From assembly GCF_021272185.1 (NCBI RefSeq), contig NZ_JAJSEC010000008.1:124001-188000 (forward strand): DNA of 64,000 nt, given 5' to 3'. Of this stretch, positions 25,271 to 40,298 are shown in pieces. The position numbers and the translations under genes were made by a program. This DNA comes from Roseivivax sp. GX 12232. GTDB lineage: Bacteria > Pseudomonadota > Alphaproteobacteria > Rhodobacterales > Rhodobacteraceae. The notes under the pieces are model-generated. The model had not been told where the DNA came from. It saw nothing but the letters and a program-made list of their open reading frames with translations, and did not search any database. Numbering within the stretch: position 1 is the stretch's first letter; each line of letters begins with the position of its first letter.

Positions 25271-25285
25271 GAACAAGAGGTGAAC
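25271..25285. promoter_or_regulatory. LexA (SOS) box of recA
   Basis: GAACAAGAGGTGAAC is an exact GAAC-N7-GAAC (GTTC-N7-GTTC) site, the LexA recognition sequence established for Rhodobacter and other Alphaproteobacteria. It overlaps the predicted transcription start of recA, the expected position for repression. Confidence 0.9.
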
Positions 25286-25341: not shown

Positions 25342-26406
25342 ATGGCAGACCTACTCTCCATGGACAGCAAGCGTACGGCAGACAAGCAGAAGGCCCTCGA
25401 TTCGGCGCTCGCGCAGATCGAACGGCAGTTCGGCAAGGGCTCGATCATGAAGCTCGGCGGCGAGAACGCCATGCGGGACATCTCGGCGACCTCGACGGGG
25501 TCGCTGGGGCTCGACATCGCGCTCGGCATCGGCGGGCTGCCCAAGGGCCGCATCATCGAAATCTACGGTCCCGAATCCTCGGGCAAGACCACGCTGACGC
25601 TGCACTGCGTGGCCGAGGAACAGAAGACCGGCGGCGTCTGCGCCTTCGTCGACGCCGAACACGCGCTCGACCCGCAATACGCCAAGAAGCTGGGCGTCGA
25701 CCTCGACGAGCTGCTGATCTCGCAGCCCGACACCGGCGAACAGGCGCTCGAGATCACCGACACGCTGGTGCGCTCCGGCGCGGTCAACATGGTCGTGGTC
25801 GACTCGGTCGCGGCGCTGACGCCCAAGGCCGAGCTCGAGGGCGACATGGGCGACAGTTCGGTCGGCGTGCAGGCCCGCCTGATGAGCCAGGCGATGCGCA
25901 AGCTCACCGGCTCGATCGCGCGGTCGAACTGCATGGTGATCTTCATCAACCAGATCCGCATGAAGATCGGCGTGATGTTCGGCTCGCCCGAGACGACGAC
26001 CGGCGGCAACGCGCTGAAGTTCTACTCCTCGGTGCGGCTCGACATCCGCCGCATCGGCGCGATCAAGGACCGCGACGAGGTGGTCGGCAACGCCACCCGC
26101 GTGAAGGTCGTGAAGAACAAGGTCGCCCCGCCCTTCAAGCAGGTCGAGTTCGACATCATGTATGGCGAGGGCATCTCCAAGACCGGCGAGCTGATCGACC
26201 TTGGCGTGAAGGCCGGCGTGGTCGAGAAATCCGGCGCCTGGTATTCCTACGGCGACGAACGCATCGGCCAGGGCCGCGAGAACGCGAAGAATTTCCTCAA
26301 GGAAAACACCGCGGTGGCCTATGATATCGAGGACAAGATCCGCGCCGCCCATGGGCTGGAGTTCCACATGGCCGACGAGGACAAGGACGAGGTGATGGAG
26401 GGCTGA
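25342..26406 (+). CDS. recA: Recombinase RecA
   Basis: A 354-aa DNA strand-exchange ATPase and SOS co-protease. Walker [10 protein letters not shown] lies at 76-84, Walker [12 protein letters not shown] near 150-160, and the DNA-binding loops [18 protein letters not shown] and [18 protein letters not shown] are complete. The acidic C-terminal tail ([10 protein letters not shown]) is present. Regulated by the SOS box upstream and followed by its own hairpin terminator. Confidence 0.99.
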
Positions 26407-37444: not shown

Positions 37445-38986
37445 TCAGCCCTGCTCCGAGAGCTGCCGCGCAAGCGCCAGGTCGCCCGCGATCTCGGCCT
37501 CGGCGCGGGCCTGGGCGTCGCGTTCGCGCAGGCGCAGCACGTAGGAGGGATGCCAGGTCACCAGAAGCTCGGTGCCGTCGGCCAGCGTCTCGACCCGGCC
37601 GCGCCGCCGCGACAGCGCCCCGCCCTGCCCGGTCAGCGCCTCGGCGGCGGTGGCACCCATGGCCAGCACCACCCTGGGGCGCACGAGCTGGCGTTCGAGG
37701 TCGAGCCACCAGCGGCAGGCCTCGACCTCGCCCGCATCGGGGCGCTGGTGGATGCGCCGCCGCCCGCGCGGGGTGAACTTGAAGTGCTTGACCGCATTGG
37801 TGACGAAGGCCGCCGAGCGCTCCACCCCGGCGCGCGCCAGGCTCCGGTCGAAAACTGCGCCCGCGGGCCCCACGAAGGGCCGCCCCGCGAGGTCCTCGCG
37901 GTCGCCGGGCTGTTCGCCAACGATCATCAGGGGCGCGCCGACCGGCCCTTCGCCGGGCACCGCCTGGGTGGCGTGACGGCAGAGCCCGCAGCGGGCACAG
38001 GCGCCGACCTCCTGCGCGAGCGTCGCCACCGGCCCTTCGGGCGCGGGCTTGGCCAGCACCCGGGCGGCATGGTCGCGCAGCGCCAGCGCGCGGCGGTCGG
38101 GCGCGGCGGCGGGGGCGGCCTCGGCCATGGCACGCACCCGCGCCTCGGCTCCGGCGACAAGCCCCGGGATCAGCTCGGCCTCGGGCAGGTTCTTCCAGTA
38201 TTTCTTGGGCATTTCCGCGCACATGGCCTTCACCATGAGCCGCGCGGGATTGAAGATCGAGGCGTAGTAGGTGCGCCAGAGATCCTCGGTCGCATCCTCG
38301 GGCGGAGGACGGGTCTCGCCGGTCTCCTCGAAGCTGAGGCGGCCATTTTCGAAGCGGGCGGTCAGATGCGGGGTGGCGATGACCCAGTCCATGTCGCCGA
38401 AGCGCTTGGCGAAGAAGGGCGCGCCGCGTTCGAGGCAGGGATGCTCGGGCTCGAACCAGGCGGCGAAGGCGCGGCGCGGGCCCCGGGCGGGCAATTCGCG
38501 GAAGCGCACGAAGGCGTGCATCTTGTGCACGTCGCGGCCCACGGATCTCGCCGCCTCAAGCGCCCAGCGCACGTCCCGGTCGGAGCGGTCGCCCCAGGCC
38601 GCGCGGCCCGCCGAAAGCGCCAGCACCAGCCGGTAGGCCCGGGCGAAGCGTTCGGGGTCGGAATGGCAGAGCGCCGCTTCGATGGTGGCGATGGCGGCCT
38701 TGGGCAGGCGCAACTCGCGCGACGGGTCGGACGAAGGGGTGGCCGTGGCTGAGGCTGCCCCAGCCGCGCCGTCCCCGGCCGCAAACAGGCCGTCGCTCAT
38801 CCCGGCAACCGGCGCGTCACCGGCCCCGGCCCCTCCATCCCCCGCCGCATCCGCGAACAGATCCGGCGCCGCCTCGCCCACCGACCAGACCAGGTCCTCG
38901 GGCGCGACACCGGCCCGTGCGAGCGCCCGCGCCTCGCGGCGCCAGGCGGCCACCGTGCCGACCCGGGGCAGAACCACCCGCCGCAT
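37445..38986 (-). CDS. udgX: DUF4130-UdgX fusion: uracil-DNA glycosylase family protein linked to radical SAM
   Basis: A 513-aa two-part protein. Residues 1-290 correspond to the DUF4130 (TIGR03915-type) module that travels with a radical SAM protein; it is interrupted by a low-complexity Gly/Ala linker at about 45-88. Residues 320-513 are a UdgX-type family 4 uracil-DNA glycosylase. The FeS cysteines are Cys330, Cys333 (or Cys336) and Cys424, the motif GEQPGDREDLAGRPF starts at 357, and the UdgX loop RRRIH has His413, equivalent to the His that bonds covalently to the uracil site. HPSYVLR begins at 479. It shares one base with the upstream radical SAM gene. Confidence 0.92.
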   Translation of the reverse strand: MRRVVLPRVGTVAAWRREARALARAGVAPEDLVWSVGEAAPDLFADAAGDGGAGAGDAPVAGMSDGLFAAGDGAAGAASATATPSSDPSRELRLPKAAIATIEAALCHSDPERFARAYRLVLALSAGRAAWGDRSDRDVRWALEAARSVGRDVHKMHAFVRFRELPARGPRRAFAAWFEPEHPCLERGAPFFAKRFGDMDWVIATPHLTARFENGRLSFEETGETRPPPEDATEDLWRTYYASIFNPARLMVKAMCAEMPKKYWKNLPEAELIPGLVAGAEARVRAMAEAAPAAAPDRRALALRDHAARVLAKPAPEGPVATLAQEVGACARCGLCRHATQAVPGEGPVGAPLMIVGEQPGDREDLAGRPFVGPAGAVFDRSLARAGVERSAAFVTNAVKHFKFTPRGRRRIHQRPDAGEVEACRWWLDLERQLVRPRVVLAMGATAAEALTGQGGALSRRRGRVETLADGTELLVTWHPSYVLRLRERDAQARAEAEIAGDLALARQLSEQG

Positions 38987-40218
38987 CAGATCAGCGACAG
39001 CTGCTCGGGCGGCGGGGCGAAGCGGGCGCGCAGGTGCTCGGCCTCGAGCAGGCCGCGCGGGCTCCAGCCGGCGCAGGTGATGAAGGGCTGCGCCTTCTTC
39101 ATCACCGCGCCCATGGCCTTGAGGTGTTCGTAGCGCACCAGCCCCCGCCGCCGAGCCGAAAGCACCCGCCCCACGGTCTTGGTGCCGAAGCCCGGCACCC
39201 GCAGCAGCTCCTCGCGGCTGGCGCGGTTCACGTCGACCGGGAAGTGCTCCCGATGGGCCAGCGCCCAGGCGGTCTTGGGGTCGATGTCGAGGTCGAGCAT
39301 CCCCGAGGCGCCGCCGATCTCCTCGACCCCGAAATCGTAGAAGCGCAGGAGCCAGTCGGCCTGATAGAGCCGGTGTTCGCGCAAGAGCGGCGCGGGCTTC
39401 AGGGGCAGCGCCTTGGCCGGGTCGGGGATCGGCGAGAAGGCCGAGTAATAGACCCGGCTCAGCCCGTAGCTTGCGTAGAGATCCGAGCTTTGCGTCAGGA
39501 TCGTCCGGTCGTTGGCCGCATCCGCCCCGACGATGACCTGCGTCGACTGGCCGGCGGGCGCGAAGCGCGCGGGCCGCTTGCCGCGCCAGCTCCGCCCGCT
39601 GCGGCTGTCCTCGCGCTTCATGCGCACATCGGCCATGGAGCGCTTGATCCCGCCCGCGTCCTTCTCCGGCGCGAGGTCCTTCAGCGAGGTCTCGGTCGGC
39701 ATCTCGATGTTGATCGACAGCCGGTCGGCGTAGCGCCCGGCGGCGTCGATCAGCTCGGGGCTGGCGTCGGGGATGGTCTTGAGGTGGATGTAGCCGCGAA
39801 AGCCCTCCTCCTCGCGCAGCTTCCGGGCGATGCGCACCATGTCGGCCATGGTGTCGTCGGGCGAGCGGATGATGCCCGAGGACAGGAACAGCCCCTCGAT
39901 GTAGTTGCGGCGGTAGAACTCTACCGTCAGATGCACGACCTCCTCGACCGAGAAACGCGCGCGCTCCACCCGGCTCGAGGCGCGGTTGATGCAATAGGCG
40001 CAATCGTAGATGCAGAAGTTCGTCATCAGGATCTTCAGAAGCGAGATGCAGCGCCCGTCCGGGGCATAGGCGTGGCAGATGCCCGAGCCGCCCGAGGAGC
40101 CGAGCCCGCCGCCGTCGCGGCTGTCGCGCCGCTCGCCCCCCGATGACGCGCAGGAGGCATCGTATTTCGCCGCATCGGAAAGGATCGCGAGTTTTTCGGA
40201 AAGTGACCGCTGTGCCAT
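38986..40218 (-). CDS. Putative DNA modification/repair radical SAM protein
   Basis: A 410-aa radical SAM enzyme of the UDG-linked type (TIGR03916). The cluster motif is CIYDCAYC with Cys69, Cys73 and Cys76. A Ser/Gly-rich insertion sits at about 24-46. The C-terminal part (from about 320) has helix-hairpin-helix character (VNRASREELLRVPGFGTKTV), suggesting DNA binding. The reaction is unknown. It is first in a two-gene operon with the DUF4130-UdgX gene (TGATG overlap). The ATG is only 2 bases from a LexA-type box and has no Shine-Dalgarno, so a leaderless transcript is likely. Confidence 0.9.
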   Translation of the reverse strand: MAQRSLSEKLAILSDAAKYDASCASSGGERRDSRDGGGLGSSGGSGICHAYAPDGRCISLLKILMTNFCIYDCAYCINRASSRVERARFSVEEVVHLTVEFYRRNYIEGLFLSSGIIRSPDDTMADMVRIARKLREEEGFRGYIHLKTIPDASPELIDAAGRYADRLSINIEMPTETSLKDLAPEKDAGGIKRSMADVRMKREDSRSGRSWRGKRPARFAPAGQSTQVIVGADAANDRTILTQSSDLYASYGLSRVYYSAFSPIPDPAKALPLKPAPLLREHRLYQADWLLRFYDFGVEEIGGASGMLDLDIDPKTAWALAHREHFPVDVNRASREELLRVPGFGTKTVGRVLSARRRGLVRYEHLKAMGAVMKKAQPFITCAGWSPRGLLEAEHLRARFAPPPEQLSLI

Positions 40219-40220
40219 GT

Positions 40221-40235
40221 GTTCACTTTATGTTC
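40221..40235. promoter_or_regulatory. LexA-type (SOS) box overlapping the promoter of the radical SAM-UdgX operon
   Basis: GTTCACTTTATGTTC is an exact GTTC-N7-GTTC site. On the minus strand it contains the -10 hexamer CATAAA (plus 40227-40232); a -35-like TTGCTT (plus 40249-40254) lies 16 bases upstream. LexA bound here would block RNA polymerase. Transcription would begin at about 40218-40220, at or next to the ATG. Confidence 0.8.
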
Positions 40236-40298
40236 CGGCCTGCGGGCAAAGCAAGCGCCCAAGCGATCACGGCTGCGTTTCAGCGCCCGGATGCGGCG

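Follow-up and report, generated by a model that had tools for sequence, protein, structure and literature searches.

A putative LexA-controlled operon of a radical SAM protein and DUF4130, with UdgX as an optional third part, in Roseivivax sp. GX 12232

A two-gene operon of Roseivivax sp. GX 12232 (Rhodobacteraceae) raises a double question. Its first gene, for a radical S-adenosylmethionine (SAM) protein, is preceded by a LexA-type box in nearly all of the genomes that we sampled, yet the enzyme is without known activity; which cellular programme does it serve, and which protein is its true partner? The operon lies on the minus strand of a stretch of 64,000 nucleotides (contig NZ_JAJSEC010000008.1, positions 124,001 to 188,000, assembly GCF_021272185.1), referred to as the window in the following, and its second gene encodes a DUF4130 domain fused to a uracil-DNA glycosylase (UDG) domain of the UdgX type. 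Judged mainly from sequence comparison, we regard it as probable that the operon is repressed by LexA and induced upon DNA damage, that its first gene is transcribed without a leader and that the radical SAM protein and DUF4130 form the working pair. An earlier note on this DNA had drawn attention to the operon, and we come back to its claims where our results bear on them.

The box at the start codon

The two-gene operon with a radical SAM gene and a DUF4130-UdgX fusion gene, as described in the earlier note, is confirmed by matches above the curated cut-offs for all three families (Table 1). For the radical SAM protein TIGR03916 is the only match among those in NCBIfam (577.7 bits versus a cut-off of 343.5), with no SplB-specific match among them, and Pfam returns Radical_SAM, DUF4130 and UDG. 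The stop codon of the first gene and the ATG of the second share one base (TGATG).

Immediately upstream of the radical SAM gene resides the box that the earlier note had pointed out, and all of its described traits are borne out, i.e. the form GTTC-N7-GTTC known from recA in the same window, the overlap with the -10 hexamer and the distance of two bases to the ATG. The radical SAM box and the recA box have the identical orientation relative to their own genes. No Shine-Dalgarno sequence is seen before the radical SAM ATG, again in agreement with the earlier note, and the box fills its place. The bare pattern is not enriched, neither in the window (two occurrences versus 1.19 expected, with two or more in 35 of 100 shuffles) nor genome-wide (53 versus 47 for a reversed control), and many of the 53 matches in the genome must be due to chance. 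We count the box as real because of its position and its conservation, not because of the frequency of the bare pattern.

A scan of genome contigs yielded at least 557 relatives, the best 80 of which were kept; these are hence close relatives, presumably mostly Rhodobacterales. The script left out four of them (L082 at a contig edge and L107-L109, in which the anchor pattern was missed). An exact box is present within 300 bases upstream in all 76 analysable loci, and L107-L109 have it as well (3/3). Comparison of homologous promoters had been named beforehand as a check, and the outcome is a conserved box. The gap between box and ATG is exactly two bases in 61 of the 76 loci and two to four bases in 73, the exceptions being L056, L076 and L087. 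More than one in-frame ATG is available in 23 loci, and there the box may have helped in the choice of the start; with a start rule blind to the box, 64 of the 76 loci keep a gap of two to four bases. Control open reading frames (ORFs) from the same loci have a box within 60 bases in 5 of 856 cases, and the other 668,528 bases contain nine boxes. In a further set of 149 genomes from the window's family, some of which are also among the named relatives, there are 27 matches to the radical SAM family, 26 of them above the cut-off. Here, 19 of 21 loci read have the box, which is missing from L024 and from the fragment L027, and six further loci have the box upstream.

The two-base gap is shared by 61 promoters, and removal of near-duplicates left 59 for a closer look at promoter anatomy. 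They are selected for an exact box at a fixed distance, so that only the letters at -35, -12 and -11 are independent of the selection. TTG is located at -35 in 45 of the 59 and within -38 to -34 in 51, the TTG of the window being one base off the majority position (-36 instead of -35). All 59 promoters have T at -12 followed by A at -11, and 36 have T at -7. These letters correspond to the -35 and -10 positions of a sigma-70 promoter with a 17-base spacer (18 bases in the window) and with +1 at the A of the ATG. As the two elements are spaced to put +1 at the AUG and a Shine-Dalgarno sequence is lacking, a leaderless or almost leaderless start is likely. Position -2 is a purine in 57 of the 59 promoters, and a start two bases earlier is therefore also possible. 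The transcription start at the AUG that the earlier note had predicted appears well supported by the conservation of the -35 and -10 letters. The box may also be genuine and the transcript nevertheless carry a leader, if it originates from an upstream promoter, be it through the DUF1045 gene or in the intergenic stretch, with LexA acting as a roadblock at the start codon. Such an arrangement would suit the DUF1045 gene, which is situated on the same strand and ends 80 bases upstream of the radical SAM gene, and the varying box distance in some families; yet TTG near -35 and TA at -12/-11 are conserved at promoter spacing, and no other position between -60 and -18 reaches 0.4 bits in the 59 promoters. 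We consider this alternative very unlikely. Given the fixed distance between box and ATG, the idea of a conserved leaderless SOS promoter can be put to a direct test.

Table 1. Coordinates of the features discussed, counted from the first base of the window; HhH, helix-hairpin-helix
Feature	Position	Strand	Remarks
Predicted LexA (SOS) box	40221..40235	minus	GTTCACTTTATGTTC; on the gene strand GAACATAAAGTGAAC; GAAC-N7-GAAC; ends 2 bases before ATG
Box of recA, alike in form (for comparison)	25271..25285	plus	recA at 25342-26406, Pfam-confirmed
-35-like hexamer TTGCTT	40249..40254	minus	-36..-31 from A of ATG; 18 bases before -10
-10-like hexamer TAAAGT	40225..40230	minus	-12..-7 of ATG, within the box
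Radical SAM gene (TIGR03916, rSAM_link_UDG)	38986..40218	minus	410 aa, ATG start; NCBIfam and Pfam
Candidate auxiliary Fe-S ligands Cys23, Cys48, His49, Cys57	40048..40152 (codons 23-57)	minus	192-193 of 194 alignment rows
SAM cluster motif C69-X3-C73-X2-C76	39991..40014	minus	194/194 rows of the radical SAM alignment
HhH region	39145..39240	minus	approx. residues 327-358; Pfam HHH, HHH_3, HHH_5, all below cut-off
DUF4130-UdgX fusion gene	37445..38986	minus	513 aa, ATG start; NCBIfam and Pfam
DUF4130 domain (TIGR03915)	38177..38959	minus	residues 10-270; 175.6 bits, cut-off 112.25
UdgX domain (TIGR03914)	37472..38173	minus	residues 272-505; 309.5 bits, cut-off 189.95
R-loop RRRIH, nucleophile position His413	37748..37762	minus	residues 409-413; alignment and structure match

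LexA-type boxes across the phylum and in the genome

A sample of 398 genomes from the phylum contains 99 with a match to TIGR03916, 84 of which lie above the cut-off. Of these 84 loci 79 were analysed, with classes assigned by kinship code; G000, G023 and G075 were read elsewhere, G258 was not among the loci fetched, and the script returned no ORF for G222. In the window's class, GAAC/GTTC-N7 occurs as an exact match within 250 bases in all 51 loci, and CTGT-N8-ACAG, the E. coli-type LexA motif, in none. Among the 28 loci from other classes, exact CTGT-N8-ACAG is present in 19 and GAAC/GTTC-N7 in none, amounting to a LexA-type box in 70 of the 79 loci. In L159, L160 and L164 (family code f46), the palindrome TCTCATCCAATGAGA occupies the place of the LexA box upstream of the radical SAM gene. 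When GGA-N5-TCC and other motifs were tested, one GGA-N5-TCC was found 200 bases upstream in Parabacteroides, none of the motifs within 250 bases in Acinetobacter and none in Fusobacterium; L210 and L212 had no readable start in this test.

The genome of Roseivivax sp. GX 12232 itself contains one lexA gene (C37:89180) with its own box at C37:89132. Sixteen box regions were inspected in this genome, several of which are truncated where the fetched piece stops. Boxes precede uvrA and genes for a UvrD/PcrA-type helicase and for ImuA-like, Y-family (ImuB-like), error-prone DnaE and MmcB-like proteins, the names ImuA and ImuB being derived from weak matches. SOS control of the operon by LexA, as proposed in the earlier note, is well supported by these sequence data, that is by the box in 76/76 relatives plus three more, by the E. 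coli-type motif in the other classes and by a lexA gene with a box of its own.

Some of the box regions in the genome merit separate mention. The genes for the ImuA-like protein (L143), error-prone DnaE (L145) and the Y-family ImuB-like protein (L147) reside on the separate contigs C22, C33 and C3, each with its own box, and the boxes of the ImuA-like and DnaE genes are identical. Region L139 (G000:C1:694600-698600) encodes at 1987-2400 on the plus strand a stand-alone OB-fold (oligonucleotide/oligosaccharide-binding fold) protein of 138 amino acids that matches the C-terminal end of error-prone DnaE; its box, GTTCTATATTCGTTC, ends two bases before the ATG. In region L138 (G000:C1:588200-592200) the box GTTCACTTAATGTTC, near-identical to that of the radical SAM gene, is found before a gene for a SnoaL-like domain.

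We take COG4277 to be the radical SAM/HhH family of the window's operon. LexA control has been predicted for a COG1573-COG4277 operon in Bacteroidetes, and earlier reports are cited for Verrucomicrobia and Alphaproteobacteria (PMC8565304, available part). According to this part, the operon resembles ours in that a UDG-family gene stands beside the COG4277 gene under LexA control, while the LexA motifs differ, being GGA-N5-TCC and CTAA-N5-TTAG, and the layout of the promoter does not come up there. LexA control has also been predicted, by footprinting and expression clustering, for CAC3343-CAC3344 in Clostridium acetobutylicum; UdgX is not mentioned in the excerpt available (PMC3828012). Moreover, NCBIfam already holds the linked set TIGR03916/TIGR03915/TIGR03914, comprising all three families in the same architecture, and names two of the three after their mutual linkage (rSAM_link_UDG and SAM_7_link_chp, the third being UDG_fam_dom). 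The earlier note had called the joint job of the three parts undescribed to its author's knowledge. As regards their occurring together and their tie to SOS this is not supported: this is a known linked set, and its SOS link has been published. A conserved leaderless-type promoter and the optional nature of UdgX are additions to the NCBIfam set, and the value of the present analysis lies in the constancy of the promoter and of the radical SAM-DUF4130 pairing and in the idea of a second cluster outlined below. In the open-access literature searched, outside of which most subscription journals lie, we found no report of UdgX together with radical SAM, and DUF4130 is named in a single paper; nor do the excerpts available bring up a leaderless layout, a constant radical SAM-DUF4130 pairing or additional cysteines. 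A paper on promoter strength in Caulobacter contains neither 'uracil' nor 'radical SAM' in its text, and papers on iron stress in Caulobacter and on SOS in Dinoroseobacter likewise lack the terms looked for.

DUF4130 as the constant partner and UdgX as an option

Within the sample of 398 genomes, each of the 84 genomes with the radical SAM gene also has DUF4130 and, conversely, radical SAM occurs in 84 of the 87 genomes with DUF4130; the three others, G344, G360 and G430, share one genus code. UdgX, in contrast, scores above its cut-off in 78 genomes and does not do so in 21 of the 84 radical SAM genomes, while 15 of the 78 UdgX genomes are without radical SAM above the cut-off. Among these 21 genomes is G529, whose fused, degenerate UdgX-like part scores below the cut-off, and the count is therefore cut-off dependent. 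Gene arrangements were compared in 188 loci, which include the window locus, twice-fetched genomes and short stretches, such that absences are upper limits: 152 loci contain the full set, DUF4130 and UdgX being fused in one frame, 31 carry the radical SAM-DUF4130 pair but no UdgX, four show radical SAM alone within the stretch at hand and one is odd. For G222, G372 and G384, DUF4130 was found in the genome though absent from the locus stretch. In G372 and G384 the radical SAM and DUF4130 genes are not adjacent but about 3 kb apart, with something inserted between them. On a FastTree phylogeny of 164 radical SAM rows, UdgX switches between present and absent at least 11 times; this tree excludes the fragment L027 and two truncated loci, has near-identical rows thinned and scores L183 as lacking UdgX.

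The constant pair is radical SAM plus DUF4130, and UdgX is optional. In one central respect the earlier note is therefore not supported, namely in a pathway with a radical SAM step and uracil trapping at its core. The choice of proteins for joint purification changes as well, since DUF4130 and not UdgX is the constant partner. The idea that UdgX forms the centre of the operon and is served by the radical SAM enzyme, for example by release or processing of the His-deoxyribose crosslink at uracil sites, would be the joint pathway of the earlier note in its strong form; it could draw on the 152 loci that unite all three parts and on the need for later resolution of UdgX-DNA adducts, for which RecA-dependent pathways have been suggested (PMC10359453, available part). 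It is at odds with the 31 loci that have the pair without UdgX and with the genomes in which UdgX and radical SAM occur one without the other above the cut-offs, and we judge it highly improbable.

The pair is also found without UdgX annotated nearby in a Parabacteroides record from outside the phylum and in an Acinetobacter record from within it. Two matches labelled as A. baumannii plasmid and Acinetobacter phage MD-2021a (L208, L211) have the operon beside glyS/glyQ, a location that looks chromosomal. Other phage-labelled matches stem from faecal samples and are without annotation.

As to the UdgX domain itself, residues 319-506 match the structure of Mycobacterium smegmatis UdgX (6ajo, E 5.6e-47). 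Motif B of UdgX has been published as HPS(S/A)(L/V)(L/V)R (PMC10359453, available part). The R-loop of the family is (K/R)RRIH. The domain in the window contains GEQPG (motif A) at 357, TNAVKH and RRRIH, and His413 is indeed located in the RRRIH loop as the earlier note had reported. Motif B reads HPSYVLR at 479, a minor departure in which Tyr replaces the published S/A and the other positions fit, the family score lying well above the cut-off. The protein is thus like M. smegmatis UdgX in its GEQPG motif A and its RRIH R-loop and unlike it in motif B and in that UdgX is a stand-alone protein there and the C-terminal domain of a DUF4130 protein here. The earlier note had further proposed three cysteines plus a fourth as iron-sulfur ligands. 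Cysteines 330, 333, 336 and 424 are present; the counterpart of Cys336 is Tyr in M. smegmatis UdgX, and His401 of TNAVKH presumably aligns with a position that is Cys in family-4 UDGs. The fourth ligand is probably His401 rather than Cys336.

Mechanism and clues to the chemistry

In the mechanism that we favour, LexA would occupy GAACATAAAGTGAAC in the undamaged cell, covering the -10 hexamer and reaching to two bases before the ATG, and would thereby block RNA polymerase. Upon DNA damage, RecA triggers the self-cleavage of LexA in the SOS pathway. Transcription would then begin at the AUG or no more than about two bases away from it, so that the mRNA has neither a leader nor a Shine-Dalgarno sequence, and the second gene would be translated by coupling at TGATG. 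The radical SAM enzyme may contact DNA via the HhH region; its constant partner DUF4130 would most likely hold the damaged strand. The target of the radical step would be a base or sugar that is damaged or unusual. Where present, UdgX might cap uracils in the same stretch via a His413-C1' bond, as suggested by its family.

Several observations weigh against this reading. Nine of the 28 loci from other classes are without the exact box; by eye, five of them have a one-base variant with a CCAG end, three another palindrome and one nothing. The family member L024 lacks the box and has an AGGAG-like site before its ATG instead, as if it had departed from the SOS regulon. The box is situated 10-84 bases upstream in several alphaproteobacterial families, and the gap is one to three bases in many families; the predicted leaderless layout is common, not universal. 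Several genes with a box in the own genome, such as that for the SnoaL-like domain, have no known tie to SOS, which is expected if some of the boxes are chance matches. On the protein side, the fold match of DUF4130 is weak. The C-terminal HhH region announced in the earlier note is matched by three HhH models, each of them below the Pfam cut-offs, and its profile matches to segments of ComEA and RuvA are weak as well (E 0.013-0.093). Contact with DNA is thus something that we infer for both proteins.

The AlphaFold2 model of the radical SAM protein has a mean pLDDT (predicted local distance difference test) of 83.0 with values below 50 at residues 23-55. Closest folds in a re-ranked list are lipoyl synthases (Z 17.0 over 228 residues, 3.4 A, 11% identity) and HydE; the top Foldseek matches are viperin, HydE and MiaB, and most of the 50 rows listed from a viral fold library are general radical SAM or Fe-S proteins. 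Spore photoproduct lyase is not among the 50 structure entries listed, which excludes nothing. In lipoyl synthase, an auxiliary cluster is located in the N-terminal part, directly ahead of the barrel. It is for this reason that a second Fe-S cluster at the N-terminal cysteines of our protein is a reasonable guess by analogy; the model is silent here, the region being of low confidence. The resemblance to the lipoyl synthase LipA comprises the closest fold and cysteines that are N-terminal to the SAM motif. The differences are a C23-X24-C48-X8-C57 spacing in place of the C-X4-C-X5-C auxiliary-cluster motif of LipA and the C-terminal HhH region. The resemblance is one of fold, and we do not claim membership in the LipA family. 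The extra cysteines together with the LipA-like fold provide concrete chemistry to test.

Two other functions have to be weighed at this point. Three extra conserved cysteines are not known as a feature of spore photoproduct lyase, and the best structures are lipoyl synthases and HydE as just described. This argues against direct repair of an ultraviolet (UV)-type pyrimidine lesion by the pair, a function that would follow from the SplB-like photolyase label assigned along with a discussion of the context by Aravind et al. 2013 (PMC3765255). SOS control would suit a lesion-repair enzyme, and we regard this option as unlikely, if worth keeping in view. Alternatively, the pair may modify RNA or install a DNA modification, with SOS control reflecting a role in stress or defence. 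The RNA-acting enzymes RlmN and MiaB are among the structural matches of the radical SAM model, and the NCBI family name speaks of modification/repair; on the other hand, the HhH region is of a kind found in DNA-binding proteins, a LexA-type box precedes most of the phylum loci and a search of the defence library PADLOC gave no match. This makes a modifying function quite unlikely.

For DUF4130 (residues 1-272, mean pLDDT 82.4) the best fold matches are PAP phosphatase, RecJ and Cdc45, with Z of 7.2 and below, a range that the tool calls common. Foldseek gave no match under E 0.001; several of its weak top matches and a second aligner point to DHH-type folds. A relation to RecJ found no support in hhalign comparisons with eight RecJ sequences (0.3% probability), and in Pfam searches up to E 10, whose filters discard most weak matches, DUF4130 was the sole match. 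The second protein of the window has no DHH motif; in the DUF4130 alignment the triplet is seen in 7 of 57 rows. A strand-holding function of DUF4130, suggested by the model, is a lead only. We also considered a catalytic or metal site. Asp136, His154, Glu179, His182 and Asp231 are kept in 55-57 of the 57 rows from the phylum sample, which argues for such a site and makes a catalytic role conceivable, but Glu179 and His182 are lost in the Parabacteroides and Acinetobacter proteins and His154 in that from Parabacteroides (aligned at 18-19% identity).

Going one step further, the operon could encode a constant SOS pair with new DNA-repair chemistry. A LipA-like barrel with a second N-terminal cluster (Cys23, Cys48, Cys57 and perhaps His49) would perform a radical step, possibly an atom insertion, on damaged DNA, DUF4130 would serve as a RecJ/Cdc45-like strand clamp and UdgX as an optional uracil cap, with a leaderless mRNA allowing their immediate synthesis upon damage. 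We put this forward as speculation that is, in its entirety, unlikely to hold. A radical SAM gene of the same name is induced by desiccation in Acinetobacter (PMC13130816, available part).

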